Shown here piece by piece: positions 15,775-39,242 of a stretch of 39,242 nucleotides of DNA. The stretch lies in contig NZ_NOXT01000080.1 of the NCBI RefSeq assembly GCF_002251755.1, positions 1 to 39,242 on the forward strand, in the 5' to 3' direction. The DNA is from Sandarakinorhabdus cyanobacteriorum. Its GTDB lineage: Bacteria; Pseudomonadota; Alphaproteobacteria; Sphingomonadales; Sphingomonadaceae. Below the pieces are notes generated by a model. The model was not told the DNA's origin. It worked only from the letters and a program-made list of their open reading frames with translations, and searched no databases. A program made the position numbers and the translations under genes. Each line of letters opens with the position of its first letter. Position 1 is the stretch's first letter.

Positions 15775-16500
15775 GTGGGAGAGTGGGCCGGCAAGACCGT
15801 GCTAGTGACAGGGGGATCAACCGGGATCGGCAATGCTGCTGCCCGGGCGTTCCGGGATAACGGGGCGCGGGTGATCGTCACCGGCACGCGGGGCAGTGCT
15901 GCCGATTATGCCGGCACCGATGGCGATCTGTCGGGCATTGACTATCACCAGCTCGACCAGGGCGACCTTGCTGCCGTGGCGGCGTTTGATCCCGGCGTGG
16001 CGCGGTTGGACGCGCTGGTCGTCTCCGGTGCCAAGGTGGCCTACAAGCGTGCCGAGTTCGTGCCCGAAATCTTTGCCGATGTGCTCGCCACCAATCTCAC
16101 CGGCCCGATGGCGCTGGTGATGCGGTTCCGGGCGGCGCTGGCGGCAGCGCGCGGCAGTGTCATTCTGGTCGGCAGCGTCGCCAGCTTCAAGGGCACCATC
16201 GGCCAGCCGGCCTATTCGGCCAGCAAAGGCGGGCTGCTCACCCTCACCCGCACGCTGGCGCAGGCGCTGGGCGGGGAAGGGATCAGGGTCAATCTCGTCG
16301 CCCCCGGCCTGGTGCGGTCCAAGATGACCGCGATCACCTGGGAGCATCCCGATCGGCTGGCGGCCACCGAACGCCAGGTGCCGCTGGGCCGCATCGGCGA
16401 GCCCGACGATATCGCCGGCCCCATCCTGTTTCTGGCGTCCGATGCGGCGCGCTATGTCACCGGCACGTCGCTGGTGATCGACGGAGGACTCTCGGCATGA
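15775..16500 (+). CDS. SDR family oxidoreductase with a variant NNAG motif
   Basis: A 241-residue SDR. It has TGGSTGIG at 12-19, Ser134, and YSASK at 147-151 (Tyr147, Lys151), and ends in the usual [12 protein letters not shown]. The NNAG motif that stabilises the central sheet and helps the proton relay is replaced by VSGA at 83-86, so the normally conserved Asn pair is absent. The frame is open far upstream with no stop, but GTG at 15775 is preceded by GGGGGAG at seven bases and leads directly into the first strand, so it is the likely start. It ends in an ATGA overlap with the next SDR gene, giving a two-gene operon of related enzymes (44-kb scale duplication is not implied; they are only moderately alike). 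Confidence 0.87.
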
Positions 16501-24113: not shown

Positions 24114-26123
<2,010 letters not shown>

Positions 26124-34509: not shown

Positions 34510-34702
34510 GGGCAAGACTCCAATCTTTATGTGCCGGATTTGATAACATTGTTTCAAAACCGCGCAAGATGCGGTGTGATAACTGCGTCGATTGCGCAAG
34601 CCGACCCATGCGCGCCGCACCGGGCTGGAAAAGCCGGCATTTTGGCTTAAGTCAGGTGCAAACCTTCAGGCGGCGTTCCCGCCCATCCGGAGATTCGCAA
34701 TC

Positions 34703-35635
34703 ATGTCCCGTCATGCCAAGGTCCTCATCATCGGTTCCGGCCCGGCCGGCTACACCGCCGCCGTCTATGCCGCCCGCGCCATGCTGGCCCCGGTGCTGAT
34801 CCAGGGCCTGCAGCCCGGCGGGCAGTTGACCATCACCACCGAGGTGGAAAACTGGCCCGGCGAGACGATGGTGATGGGCCCCGATCTGATGGTGAAGATG
34901 GAGGCCCAGGCCCGCCATGTCGGCGCCGAGATCATCACCGACATCGTGACGAAAGTTGACCTGTCGCAGCGCCCCTTCGTGCTGGAAACCGACAGCGGCC
35001 AGGGCTGGACGGCCGACACGCTGGTGATTGCCACCGGCGCCCAGGCCCGCTGGCTGGGGCTGGACAGCGAGACCAAGTATCGCGGCTTCGGCGTTTCGGC
35101 CTGCGCCACCTGCGACGGCTTCTTCTTCCGCGGCAAGGAAGTGGTGGTCGTCGGCGGCGGCAACACGGCGGTGGAGGAGGCGATGTTCCTCACCAAGTTT
35201 GCCTCCCGGGTCCATCTCGTCCACCGCCGCGGCGAACTCAGGGCCGACAAGACCAACCAGGCCCGCCTGCTGGAAAACCCCAAGGTGGTGATGCACTGGC
35301 ACGCCGAAGTCGCGGAAGTCCACGGCCAGGATATGCCGTTGAAGGTGGAGGGCGTCACCCTGCGCGACACCCGCGATGGCAGCACCCGCCTGCTGCCCGC
35401 TGATGGCCTGTTCGTCGCCATCGGCCATGTGCCGGCGACCAGCCTGTTCACCGGCCAGCTGACCATGGATGACGAGGGCTATATCATCACCGCGCCCGAC
35501 AGCACCGCCACCAGCGTGCCCGGCGTGTTTGCCGCTGGCGACGTGAAGGACAAGCTGTATCGCCAGGCCGTCACCGCCGCCGGCATGGGCTGCATGGCCG
35601 CGCTTGAAGCCGAGCGGTTTCTGGCGCACGGTTGA
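34703..35635 (+). CDS. trxB: Thioredoxin-disulfide reductase
   Basis: A 310-residue flavoenzyme that passes electrons from NADPH to thioredoxin. The FAD-binding motif is GSGPAG at 11-16, the redox pair CATC sits at 134-137 in [16 protein letters not shown], the NADPH-binding [10 protein letters not shown] follows, and the terminal FAD contact is [23 protein letters not shown]. Length and domain order are normal for the low-molecular-weight enzyme. GGAG lies 11 bases before the ATG. The LysR gene starts 27 bases after its stop and may be co-transcribed. Confidence 0.97.
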
Positions 35636-35662: not shown

Positions 35663-36574
35663 GTGCAGCCGGGCATCAATCTCGATTGGGAAAAGCTGCG
35701 CCTGTTCGATGTCGTGGCCGATGCCGGCAGCTTTACCGAGGCCGCCCGCCGCCTGCACATGAGCCAGCCCGCCCTGTCGCGCCAGATCGCGGCGCTGGAA
35801 GAAAGCCTGGGCGCCAAGCTGTTCCACCGCCACGCCCGCGGCCTTGCCATGACTCACGAGGGCGAGCAGCTGCGCAGCGCCACATCCGACATGCACGAGC
35901 GCATCGACCGTGCCGCCCAAGCCATCGATGCCAGCCGCGACCGGCCGACCGGTGCGATCCGGCTCACCACCACAGTCTCATTCGGCTCGACCTGGCTGGC
36001 GCGGCAACTGGGCGATTTCCTTGATCTCTATCCCGATATCAGCGTCCACCTGATGCTGACCGATGCCGATCTGGATCTGGCCAAGCGTGAGGCCGATGTC
36101 GCCATCCGCTTCCACCGGCCGTTCCAGAGCGAGCTGATGCAGCGCCCGCTCGCCAACATTCGTCACTATCTGGTCGCCAGCCCTGATTATCTCGCCCGTC
36201 ATGGCGAACCCAGGACCATCGCCGATCTGGAACAGCACCGGCTGATTGCCTATGGCGATGCCGCGCCCGATTATCTGAAGGGCATCAACTGGATCCTGGA
36301 ACTCGGCCACGAAGGCCATCCCCGCCCGGCCGCGCTCACCATCAACAACAGCCATGGCGTGCTGCAGGCGGTTGAGTCGGGCGCCGGCATCGCCGCGCTG
36401 CCATCTTATCTCATCCGCTCGTCGGGGCGGGTGCAGGTGGTGCTGCCGCAGGTGGAAGGGCCGGTGTTCCGGACCTTCTTCACCTATCCGTCGGAACTGC
36501 GCCGGTCCCTGCGCATTGCCGCGCTGCGGGATTTCCTGGTCGATCGCATGACCAGCCAGGCCCTCGATATGTGA
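35663..36574 (+). CDS. LysR family transcriptional regulator
   Basis: A 303-residue LysR regulator. The winged HTH covers residues 8-66 (LDWEKLRLFDVVADAGSFTEAARRLHMSQPALSRQIAALE), followed by a linker helix and a periplasmic-binding-protein-like effector domain (from GAIRLTTTVSFGSTWLARQL). The start is GTG at 35663 with AGGGG nine bases upstream. Position behind trxB suggests a link to redox stress, but no OxyR-type Cys pair is visible, so the inducer is unknown. A small hairpin follows the stop (36587-36601). Confidence 0.92.
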   Translation: MQPGINLDWEKLRLFDVVADAGSFTEAARRLHMSQPALSRQIAALEESLGAKLFHRHARGLAMTHEGEQLRSATSDMHERIDRAAQAIDASRDRPTGAIRLTTTVSFGSTWLARQLGDFLDLYPDISVHLMLTDADLDLAKREADVAIRFHRPFQSELMQRPLANIRHYLVASPDYLARHGEPRTIADLEQHRLIAYGDAAPDYLKGINWILELGHEGHPRPAALTINNSHGVLQAVESGAGIAALPSYLIRSSGRVQVVLPQVEGPVFRTFFTYPSELRRSLRIAALRDFLVDRMTSQALDM

Positions 36575-36586
36575 GGCAGCCTGTCG

Positions 36587-36601
36587 CAGCCATTTTGGCT
36601 G
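36587..36601 (+). terminator. Small hairpin after the LysR gene
   Basis: CAGCCA (36587-36592) and TGGCTG (36596-36601) form a perfect 6-bp stem with a TTT loop, 13 bases past the LysR stop. No T run follows, so terminator function is uncertain. Confidence 0.35.
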
Positions 36602-36610
36602 TGGCGGAAA

Positions 36611-36671
36611 TTTGCGCAAAATCAAATATCTGCCGGCGGTCACGCGCACACCCCATGCAAAAAATGCATGG
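36611..36671. promoter_or_regulatory. Two palindromes upstream of the small RNA candidate
   Basis: TTTGCGCAAA (36611-36620) is a perfect 10-base palindrome. CCATGCA (36653-36659) and TGCATGG (36665-36671) form a perfect 7-bp dyad separated by five A. Both lie in AT-richer sequence within 75 bases of the proposed small RNA promoter and look like protein-binding sites. Confidence 0.4.
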
Positions 36672-36684
36672 CTGCAGCGCGATA

Positions 36685-36713
36685 TTGTGCACTGCAAAAC
36701 GCCCCGGCTAATC
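36685..36713 (+). promoter_or_regulatory. Weak candidate promoter for the small RNA
   Basis: TTGTGC (36685-36690) and CTAATC (36708-36713) are 17 bases apart. Both match the consensus poorly, so this is only the best spacing available; it would start RNA near 36720, just before the stem-loops. Confidence 0.25.
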
Positions 36714-36719
36714 CGTAGA

Positions 36720-36914
36720 TAGATCGTGTCGCCGCGATAGCGGTCACGCCGGGTCCGCCGCACTCCTCCCCTCTCGCGGCTCACCCGGCCGGCAGGCGCT
36801 CTCCTCCCCCCTTGATGCGCCTTGCCAGCCCGGATGCGCCACTCCTCCCCTCCCGGCGCCATTCCGGGCGAAATATCGGGCCGGATGCCTCCCCCAGGCA
36901 TCCGGCCCTTTTTT
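36720..36914 (+). ncRNA. Candidate small RNA with three identical C-rich hairpin loops
   Basis: Three stem-loops follow one another. Stem 1 pairs 36749-36761 with 36776-36788 (11 pairs and a 2x2 internal loop). Stem 2 pairs 36791-36799 with 36817-36826 (9 pairs and one bulge). Stem 3 pairs 36829-36840 with 36855-36868 (12 pairs and two bulges). Each loop contains exactly CTCCTCCCC (36763-36771, 36801-36809, 36842-36850), while the stems differ from one another. A perfect terminator ends the unit. Conserved C-rich loops that complement purine-rich ribosome sites are known from alphaproteobacterial cuckoo RNAs and Xanthomonas sX13, but no homology to either is claimed. No ORF of plausible composition covers the region. 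The 5' end is a guess. It fills most of the 425-base gap between the LysR gene and the tRNA. Confidence 0.75.
36878..36914 (+). terminator. Strong intrinsic terminator of the small RNA
   Basis: A perfect 13-bp stem (36878-36890 with 36896-36908) with a CCCCC loop is followed by six T (36909-36914). It is the clearest terminator in the window. It stands 300 bases past the LysR stop, so it should end a separate transcript. The minus strand lacks a T run, which fixes the direction. Confidence 0.93.
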
Positions 36915-36999
36915 CATCCTGCGACCAAGCGTCCTCTGCACGGGCCGAGCCGGCCTTCCCATTTTGCCATGGCTGCGCTAACCGCTCAGGCACCGGGCC

Positions 37000-37072
37000 G
37001 GGCCTGTAGCTCAACGGTTAGAGCTGGCCGCTCATAACGGCTAGGTTGGGGGTTCGAATCCCTCCGGGCCCA
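37000..37072 (+). tRNA. tRNA with CAT anticodon, probably tRNA-Ile2 (lysidine)
   Basis: A complete 73-base cloverleaf: acceptor GGGCCTG with CGGGCCC (one T-G pair), D stem GCTC/GAGC, anticodon stem GGCCG/CGGCT with loop CTCATAA (CAT at 37033-37035), and T stem around TTCGAAT. A73 follows, then CCG, so CCA is not encoded. It is not the initiator, since position 1 pairs with 72. The short D loop and acceptor resemble the minor isoleucine tRNA whose CAT is modified to read AUA, but elongator Met cannot be fully excluded. Confidence 0.93.
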
Positions 37073-37088
37073 CCGGTGTTGTGAAAGG

Positions 37089-38132
37089 ATGAGGCGTCTG
37101 GGCGTGTCGGCAGAACAAGCGGAATCCACAGCCGCCAAACGCCCCCGCGCCACCTGGACCACCTGGGTCGGCGCCGCGCTCGGCCTGCTGGTGCTCGGCC
37201 TTGCCGCCTGGGGCCTGAAGAAGATTTCCGGCCAGGTCACGCTGGATGACGTGATCCGCGAGATCAATTCCACCCCGGCGCATCTGATTGTCTTTGCCGC
37301 GGCTTCCACCTTCCTCTCCTATGTCGTGCTGGTCGGCTATGACTGGTTCGCCACCCGGCATCTGGGCTACAGGATCGGCTGGCCGATGCTGGCCGCCGCC
37401 AGCTTCTCCAGCTTCACCATGAGCCACACGCTGGGCGTTACCATCCTCACCGGCGGCACGGTGCGCTATCGCATCTACACCCGCGAAGGCGTGCGCCCGG
37501 CCGATATCGCCATGATCATCCTGCTCTGCGGCTGGACCTTCTGGCTGGGCATCATCTTCGTCGCCGGCGTTGGCCTCGTCGTCTCGCCCACCCTGATGCC
37601 GCAGCAGCTGCGCGAGTGGGCGCCGCCAGCGGTGGAGGAGTTCATCGGCGCGCTGTTCCTGGCCGGCGTCGCGCTTTACACCATTCTCGCCTCCACCTGG
37701 CGGCGCGAATTCCGGCTGTGGCGCTATCGCTTCACCATTCCCAACGGCAAGGAAACCCTGCAGCAGATCGCCATCGGCACCATCGATCTGGCCTTTGCCG
37801 GTGGCGCTCTCTACATCCTGCTGCTGCCGGTGGCCGGCATCCCCGATCTGCTCACCTTCCTGGTCATCTATGCCGTTGCCATGGTCTCGGGCGCGCTGGC
37901 CCATGCGCCGGGCGGCATCGGCGTGTTCGAACTGGTCATCGTTGGCCTGATGCCAGAGGCGGACAAGGCCGGTGTGCTCGCCGCCGTGGCGCTGTTCCGC
38001 CTGATGTATACCTTCGTGCCGTTCGTGCTGGGCGCCGGCGTGATCGCCGTGCTGGAATGGAAAGCGCTCAGAACGGCCCGCGCCGCAGCTGCTCTGCCCG
38101 CTGCGCCAGCTTCTGCCGCCAGCGAGGCGTGA
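37089..38132 (+). CDS. YbhN / UPF0104 family integral membrane protein
   Basis: A 347-residue membrane protein of the lysylphosphatidylglycerol synthetase transmembrane-region family (PF03706). About eight hydrophobic segments are visible, from WVGAALGLLVLGLAAWGL (residues 26-43) to LFRLMYTFVPFVLGAGVIAVLEW. The family motif around FTMSHTLGVTILTGGTVRYRIYTREGV and the segment GALAHAPGGIGVFELVIVGL are conserved. There is no aminoacyl-transferase domain, so it cannot make lysyl-lipid itself; lipid transport or flipping is a guess from the family. Starts at ATG 37089 (AAAGG directly before, too close) or GTG 37104 with GAGG nine bases upstream. The last 65 bases overlap the convergent MOSC gene. 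Confidence 0.85.
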   Translation: MRRLGVSAEQAESTAAKRPRATWTTWVGAALGLLVLGLAAWGLKKISGQVTLDDVIREINSTPAHLIVFAAASTFLSYVVLVGYDWFATRHLGYRIGWPMLAAASFSSFTMSHTLGVTILTGGTVRYRIYTREGVRPADIAMIILLCGWTFWLGIIFVAGVGLVVSPTLMPQQLREWAPPAVEEFIGALFLAGVALYTILASTWRREFRLWRYRFTIPNGKETLQQIAIGTIDLAFAGGALYILLLPVAGIPDLLTFLVIYAVAMVSGALAHAPGGIGVFELVIVGLMPEADKAGVLAAVALFRLMYTFVPFVLGAGVIAVLEWKALRTARAAAALPAAPASAASEA

Positions 38133-39036: not shown

Positions 39037-39242
39037 ATGCGTCGAACCAGGAATGCGGCAGCGCTTTGGCTGCTGCTGGCGCCGGCAATGCCGGTGATGG
39101 CACAACCGGCACTGGGCGTGGGGTCCCCGCCACCGGCCGCAACCAGCGTTGCCAAGCCGCCAATCGTGATGACCGCCAAGCCGCTGAAAGCCCTGCAGCT
39201 CAGCAAGGTGGGCACCTCCATTAACTCAGCTGAGCACCGCGC
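39037..39242 (+). CDS. Exported protein, N-terminal part only (cut by the window end)
   Basis: The ATG at 39037 follows GAGGGGAG at a good distance and opens a frame without stop to the window end (68 codons). The signal peptide MRRTRNAAALWLLLAPAMPVMA is clear, with cleavage probably after MA and before QPA. The mature start is a Pro/Ala-rich segment (SPPPAATSVAKPP) followed by KPLKALQLSKVG. No family can be named from this fragment. The preceding terminator suggests it has its own promoter in 38931-39020. Confidence 0.65.
   Translation, partial: MRRTRNAAALWLLLAPAMPVMAQPALGVGSPPPAATSVAKPPIVMTAKPLKALQLSKVGTSINSAEHR

Follow-up and report, generated by a model that had tools for sequence, protein, structure and literature searches.

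A predicted small RNA with three anti-Shine-Dalgarno hairpin loops beside an LsrB/VtlR-type regulator gene in Sandarakinorhabdus cyanobacteriorum, and its probable control by LsrB

The LysR-type regulator LsrB activates abcR1 and nfeR1, and the AbcR and NfeR1 RNAs are reported to tune metabolism in rhizobia (PMC10746234, PMC8844928). NfeR1, the alpha-r14 RNA of Sinorhizobium meliloti, is described as carrying three redundant anti-Shine-Dalgarno (aSD) motifs through which it represses at start sites, and its LsrB site, TGCA-N6-GCAT at -72 to -60, was established by gel-shift and reporter experiments (PMC10746234). AbcR1, which is activated by LsrB/VtlR, uses aSD motifs on transport and metabolic targets (PMC8844928), and the gene order reported for Agrobacterium tumefaciens is trxB-vtlR-abcR1-abcR2, with trxB-vtlR well conserved across the class (PMC7486931). 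Related motifs are found in more distant RNAs. The CcsR RNAs reportedly share a transcript with a DUF1127 gene and are cut out of a single precursor (PMC10253847); sX13 of Xanthomonas, which belongs to a different class of bacteria, is reported to repress mRNAs with G-rich motifs by means of C-rich loops and without Hfq (PMC3771888); and the SuhB/MmgR/SisA-D RNAs (alpha-r8, RF00519) have the aSD stretch UUUCCUCCCU (PMC12559287), a 61-nt SuhB being known among sphingomonads from Sphingopyxis (PMC6563040).

The window analysed here, which is the whole stretch of 39,242 nucleotides of contig NZ_NOXT01000080.1 of S. cyanobacteriorum, carries on its forward strand a predicted small RNA gene of about 187 nt (36728..36914, the transcription start being inferred) directly downstream of two protein genes. 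The first is trxB, thioredoxin reductase (34703..35635, +; start picked from the ORF list), which scored 392 bits with NCBIfam TIGR01292, above the cut-off, when 34697-35632 was run. The second (35663..36574, +; GTG start) encodes a LysR-type regulator that matched PDB 9HH1 by phmmer with an E value of 5.4e-80 over residues 6-295. Since 9HH1 is given as the LsrB of A. tumefaciens (PMC11975290), the window protein is, by homology, an ortholog of Agrobacterium LsrB/VtlR; it is 91-94% identical to the proteins of S. oryzae, S. limnophila and S. rubra. The CxxCDG motif of TrxB was found upstream of the LysR gene in 42 of 47 loci of named relatives, and of the five others one ends at a contig end and four are 30-35% paralogs. 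With trxB and the LysR gene upstream as in A. tumefaciens, the window RNA occupies the AbcR position. AbcR1/AbcR2, on the other hand, are an Hfq-bound tandem pair with two distinct aSD motifs each, whereas the window RNA is single and has three near-identical loops.

Downstream of the RNA, 85 nt past its terminator, lies a separate gene for a tRNA with a CAT anticodon (37000..37074, +), found by ARAGORN and Rfam; at gathering level this tRNA was all that Rfam reported. The first-pass annotation had proposed a search for the RNA upstream of a CAT tRNA in sphingomonads, and the tRNA is indeed kept downstream in 27 of 30 loci of named relatives; it is inverted in L097, ARAGORN finds none in L081 and L089, and in Sphingosinicella-type loci over 1 kb separates it from the stop codon of the LysR gene. 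ARAGORN also reported a tRNA-like hit with a two-base anticodon at window positions 25978-26073, which Rfam does not list at gathering level and which is probably a false positive.

The region between the LysR gene and the RNA contains an LsrB-type box, TGCA-N6-GCAT (TGCAAAAAATGCAT, 36656..36669, +), with the motif of the nfeR1 LsrB site (PMC10746234). The box would span -72 to -59 if transcription starts at 36728, so that it resembles that of NfeR1, about 60-72 nt upstream of the start, in sequence and in position. A second conserved promoter element, TTGTGCACTGCAAAA (36685..36699, +), is a near-palindrome, reads TTGTGCAcTGCACAA in some relatives and was recognised by alignment and promoter scan. 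The predicted -10 box, TAGATA (36716..36721, +), starts 60 nt after the start of the LsrB-type box and was judged by conservation; a scan for sigma-70 promoters gave no consensus promoter. The near-palindrome of the second element, TTGTGCAcTGCAcAA, lies between box and -10. Sites for NtrC, EcfG and the phasin regulator PhaR had been considered for the palindromes and were dropped once the published LsrB site was found to match. In the whole genome only two perfect TGCA-N6-GCATGGCTG sites occur, one in the RNA promoter and the other before the gene of a 49-residue protein.

Conservation of the box and of its spacing was determined in relatives of the window locus. In 29 of 30 loci a box-like TGC[AG]-N6-[GA]CAT was present close to the stop codon of the LysR gene or within 1.1 kb beyond it. 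The match in L089 falls in sequence that is unrelated, and the box of L093, a variant by one base, escapes the pattern. Offsets of 30-89 after the box were then scored for the best TATATA-like hexamer, ties being kept. Offset 60 was top or tied top in 24 of the 29 loci with a box and sole top in 20, and no other offset was top in more than 3; an earlier scan had placed 22 of 25 at offset 60, but with ties broken towards 60. In ten relatives (L080, L081, L083, L084, L085, L087, L092, L094, L095 and L096) the box begins within the LysR gene, 16 nt ahead of its stop codon, so the last codons of the regulator double as its presumed target site. On the opposite strand an antisense ORF of 70 codons (window 36480-36692, -) spans the LysR end and the RNA promoter; its weak DUF1289 match (19.2 bits against a Pfam cut-off of 27) is probably due to chance.

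The predicted transcript consists of a 5' hairpin, three GC-rich hairpins with CUCCUCCCC loops and differing stems, and a terminator. The 5' hairpin (36728..36747, +) has 7 pairs, with 100% of cells paired in 11 distinct aligned rows. It is followed by hairpin 1 (36748..36789, +; loop ACUCCUCCCCUCUC; 12 pairs, 2 of them changed on both sides in orthologs), hairpin 2 (36791..36826, +; loop UCCUCCCCCCUU; folded by 12 of 12 orthologs) and hairpin 3 (36828..36869, +; loop ACUCCUCCCCUCCC), the last drawn from the fold and the ortholog alignment. The Rho-independent terminator (36878..36914, +) has 13 pairs at 36878-36908, 2 of them changed on both sides, and then T6, as the first-pass annotation had described. 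The minimum free energy of a 198-nt fold was -108.9, compared with a mean of -72.3 for shuffled sequences (z -9.8), and none of 200 shuffles folded as well.

The nonamer CTCCTCCCC has three copies in the window, both strands counted, at 36763-36771, 36801-36809 and 36842-36850; 0.40 matches were expected, and 2 of 100 shuffles reached 3. Genome-wide, both strands counted, it has 42 copies against 21 for the reversed control, indicating that the nonamer alone is not rare but that its arrangement is. The three stems are unrelated to one another: within one molecule the loops are 73% alike and the arms about 60% (mean of 12 orthologs). The claim of three hairpins with unrelated stems sharing a nonamer thus stands, with two refinements, namely the fourth hairpin at the 5' end and the partial pairing of the nonamer in hairpin 2, where the minimum free energy fold closes part of it into two weak pairs and so leaves UCCUCCCCCCUU as the unpaired part. 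A coding function was rejected, as orthologs of 185-196 nt have indels in stems and loops and none of the small ORFs of the region passed a Pfam cut-off.

Of 98 relatives searched at the DNA level, 25 genomes had a match at E 0.01 or better. Twelve of these matches (own genome included) were long, with E values of 1e-144 to 1e-27, and the remainder were short and judged case by case. Alignment A2, made with MAFFT, has 12 rows, 11 of them distinct, and its structure was obtained by RNAalifold. In that structure 99.1% of cells are paired across the 11 distinct orthologs, a test that is favoured by the structure having been derived from A2 itself; with slid partners as controls pairing fell to 33-41%. 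Six pairs are changed on both sides, compared with 2.6 in shuffles, and none of 500 shuffles reached 6. Of five shuffle measures one went the opposite way: further pair types numbered 11, whereas shuffles gave 12.4, and 495 of the 500 shuffles scored as high. A covariation analysis such as the first-pass annotation had called for, naming a lack of stem covariation and loop conservation as refuting its proposal, came out on the side of a conserved structure.

The RNAalifold structure omits hairpin 2, which MAFFT aligned poorly because its stem has been replaced: it is GGCAGGCGC...GCGCCUUGCC in the window and UGAUCGGUC...GACCGAUCA in others, while the loop remains UCCUCCCCC-like. Between orthologs the arms of hairpin 2 are 63-65% identical compared with 80% for the loops. 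Conservation exceeds that of the loop in both arms of hairpin 1 and in one arm of hairpin 3, so that the greater conservation of loops holds for hairpin 2 and for the comparison between hairpins only. In composition the loops are C-rich, with hardly any G. CTCC and CCC are present in all 36 loops of the 12 orthologs, TCCTCCC in 27 and the exact nonamer in 16, and there is a single G in 449 loop nucleotides. Stems that co-vary and loops that stay C-rich agree with the proposal of a small RNA under selection on its loop sequence.

A covariance model, R1, built from A2 matched 39 of the 98 relatives with an E value of 0.1 or lower, but many of these matches are chance terminators. Its hits elsewhere in the own genome, on contigs C57 and C49, were rejected as paralogs on reading, being terminator or coding sequence matched by chance; as the C57 hit scored 37.7 bits, chance alone can carry an R1 score to about 38 bits. 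By reading of the sequences, RNA and box are present in 20 of 24 genomes of the genus (own included; G007 and G023 not counted), namely the 12 of A2 and G004, G008, G012, G013, G016, G017, G019 and G021; the R1 hits in G018 and G006 were put down to chance. G019 holds two near-identical copies (L200, L201), of which one lies beside the LysR gene and the other at a different place; both have a box-like element of their own. Among the 30 loci of named relatives with a LysR identity of 65% or more (L069-L098), a scripted count, which may include terminator loops, found at least two hairpins with C-rich loops downstream in 23. Among the seven loci that it passed over, L092, L093, L095 and L096 have two C-rich hairpins by eye, L088 and L090 have the RNA farther downstream, and in L089 no such RNA was seen on reading.

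Taken together with the published systems, these features make an LsrB-controlled, trans-acting aSD RNA, built like NfeR1 but placed at the AbcR locus, the probable explanation, and we hold it with some confidence. The LsrB/VtlR-type regulator encoded beside the RNA gene would control that gene by binding TGCA-N6-GCAT at about -72 to -59 and recruiting RNA polymerase to the promoter with the -10 TAGATA; binding of LsrB to its sites has been demonstrated in other genera only (PMC10746234). The transcript of about 187 nt would stop at the strong terminator, and its three stable stems would keep three aSD copies (CUCCUCCCC and close variants) single-stranded. Each loop copy could then pair with ribosome-binding sites of the GGGGAGG type and block ribosome entry, so that the RNA would lower the output of metabolic and transport genes.

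That the RNA is a strict member of the alpha-r14 (NfeR1) family, set apart by divergence only, is unlikely. The best Rfam match was indeed ar14 (RF02344), with E 1.5e-5 over the full model length, and the family answers to the same description, three hairpins with differing stems and an aSD motif in each loop. The match, however, reached 37.5 bits against a gathering score of 58.8, a cut-off that has little power in the draw of 190 class genomes, where 8 had an ar14 match and none exceeded it. NfeR1 differs further in its length of 123 nt as against 187, in its motif CCUCCUCCC and, as far as the source describes it (PMC10746234), in not adjoining lsrB, the window RNA having the AbcR-type position beside that gene, one more hairpin at the 5' end and a terminator of its own; the ar14 model, by contrast, places the third aSD motif in the loop of its final hairpin, which bears the U tail. 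By architecture, then, the RNA would work like NfeR1, by position it is the counterpart of AbcR, and by Rfam it is neither.

The comparison with Rfam suggested at the outset thus yielded no small RNA family above cut-off, ar14 being the nearest; sX13 scored 24.7 against 50 bits and SuhB 19.4 against 41, and none of the 18 matches that cmscan gave within E 10 bears the name AbcR or ar15, AbcR1/AbcR2 being presumably alpha-r15. SuhB is unlike the window RNA in having one unpaired aSD stretch. The likeness to cuckoo RNAs and sX13 that had been pointed out holds for the motif, of the CCUCCUCCC type as in CcsR1-4 and SorX of Rhodobacter, and for the three stable stems with C-rich loops of sX13. Unlike the CcsR RNAs, the window RNA is single, has its own promoter element and terminator, and has a LysR gene and a tRNA as neighbours; the six small ORFs of 36483-37309 gave no DUF1127 match. 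The first-pass annotation had overlooked the LsrB/VtlR gene next door, the box for LsrB and alpha-r14/NfeR1, whose architecture is nearly the same. Its view of the RNA as undescribed-looking may hold for the lineage, as no description was found in the titles and abstracts of the open-licence literature on sphingomonad small RNAs, cuckoo RNAs, AbcR and VtlR among the matches listed, but not for the type, since that architecture is published (PMC10746234).

The aSD RNA proposed here should have targets with G-rich ribosome-binding sites, and such sites were sought in the genome. Outside the RNA there are 39 GGGGAGGAG sites, 16 of which stand before a start codon that opens an ORF of at least 50 codons, compared with 10 for the opposite strand; for ATG starts alone the counts are 10 of 39 and 3 of 39. 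Of the ten ATG cases, seven look like genuine starts of genes. Pfam matches were obtained for six of them (GH16 hydrolase, nitronate monooxygenase, MFS transporter, polysaccharide deacetylase, VOC/glyoxalase protein and acyl-CoA dehydrogenase), and the seventh, which gave no Pfam match, encodes what we take to be a ChpT-like protein. Two of these candidates were followed in orthologs, a G-rich site being counted as GGGGAGG, GGGAGGA, GGGGAG or GGGAGG within 22 nt. For the VOC/glyoxalase gene, 9 of 17 orthologs retain such a site, which in 7 is GGGGAGG. Six of the 17 whose start was not found are scored as misses, although L288 and L292 have a GGGG run there; the site is absent in L290 and L291. 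Nitronate monooxygenase was set aside as a conserved target, since no more than 3 of its 21 orthologs retain a G-rich site, a count in which 3 starts were not found and some are probably misplaced.

Targets within the window had also been put forward. GGGGAG-N3-14-ATG occurs there 3 times against 7.3 expected, and 97 of 100 shuffles have at least 3, so there is no enrichment and the window lends these targets no support; individual sites nevertheless exist, GAGGGGAG before the ATG at 39037 and GGGGGAGAG shortly before the GTG at 15775, which the ATG-only window count passes over. The aSD potential ascribed to the loops is supported, and some likely start sites are complementary to them. GGGGAGG, though, makes a good Shine-Dalgarno sequence in any case, so that complementarity by itself counts for little, and the target side is suggestive at best.

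The same loops might instead serve as a sponge or decoy for a C-rich-RNA-binding protein or a G-rich small RNA rather than pair with mRNA, which we consider improbable. Repeated identical loops would suit titration, and aSD RNAs do take part in RNA-RNA titration, since the Caulobacter small RNA CrfA is reported to sponge the C-rich alpha-r8 RNAs with a G/A-rich stem loop (PMC12559287). The loops, however, copy the aSD sequence and find complements at some likely start sites, and the nearest characterised RNAs (NfeR1, AbcR and sX13) pair with mRNAs near start sites. That the element serves as leader or attenuator for the tRNA that follows it, or for a flippase-like gene, instead of yielding a free RNA is hardly credible, for although the CAT tRNA follows on the same strand in most of the loci, the terminator is strong and conserved and stands well short of it, the tRNA is distant, inverted or missing in the loci named above, and the second copy in G019 has its own box at another place.

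Control of the aSD RNA by LsrB would here involve a regulator that differs from the rhizobial one. The LsrB of rhizobia is reported to sense redox state through thiols, C144 and C273 being conserved in the three Rhizobiales proteins compared (PMC11975290). The window protein has no cysteine at all, which excludes thiol switching inside it; nor have its closest orthologs (L069-L078 and L098) or those of L099-L111, while among the orthologs of L079-L097 a single cysteine is the rule and L088 and L097 have two. The cysteine-free LsrB thus separates a likely RNA-activating role from thiol redox sensing. The second perfect box, outside the window, precedes the gene of the 49-residue protein (MKV...RLFHAL; G000:C110:17679-17825, -), which lies between ligA and prmA as named by reading of the ORFs. 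This protein gave no Pfam match and is present in 19 of 24 genus genomes, with the box 110-117 nt before the start codon in all 19.

LsrB orthologs extend, by sequence comparison, well beyond Rhizobiales, to which a 2025 paper states LsrB to be confined ("solely"; PMC11975290). An order-wide search with the LysR protein matched 110 of 147 genomes at 1e-30, the scores being bimodal (1e-70 or better, and 1e-51 or weaker). Orthologs at 1e-70 or better were found in most listed genomes of families f2-f8 and, in this draw of the order, in only four listed for f1, the window's own family, which suggests, from the matches listed, a broad loss there. The likely standing of the window RNA as a counterpart of the AbcR/NfeR1 RNAs would move the circuit from LsrB to an aSD RNA beyond rhizobia, into sphingomonads and Magnetospirillum, where it could be studied free of symbiosis or virulence. 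Retention of the loops while a stem is replaced is also a caution for covariance-model families such as ar14, which miss this RNA.

A wider reading, possible though rather doubtful, is that trxB, lsrB and an aSD RNA form an ancient module of the Alphaproteobacteria that predates the use of LsrB as a redox sensor and whose RNA has been rebuilt repeatedly, stems, hairpin number and length varying while the aSD motif, the box and the spacing stay. AbcR, NfeR1, SorX/CcsR and the window RNA would be its lineage versions, and the direct LsrB regulon of Sandarakinorhabdus might be little more than the RNA and the 49-residue protein, with a signal other than LsrB thiol oxidation. This reading derives from order-wide boxes, GAARCCTCCC stretches and sub-threshold SuhB, SorX and SorY matches. 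Among the best 30 order-wide loci, 29 of them parsed, an ATGC..GCAT-like element lies downstream in 19, a loose pattern of which at least L059 and L068 look like chance, and a GAARCCTCCC stretch in 9. LsrB-linked RNAs in other families of the order gave weak SorX and CcsR1 matches. In Magnetospirillum and related loci (L100-L111) box and GAARCCTCCC stand downstream of the LysR gene in 10 of 12, the stretch missing in L102 and L110 and L099 ending too soon to tell, and of seven such loci submitted to cmscan several gave sub-threshold SuhB, SorX or SorY matches.
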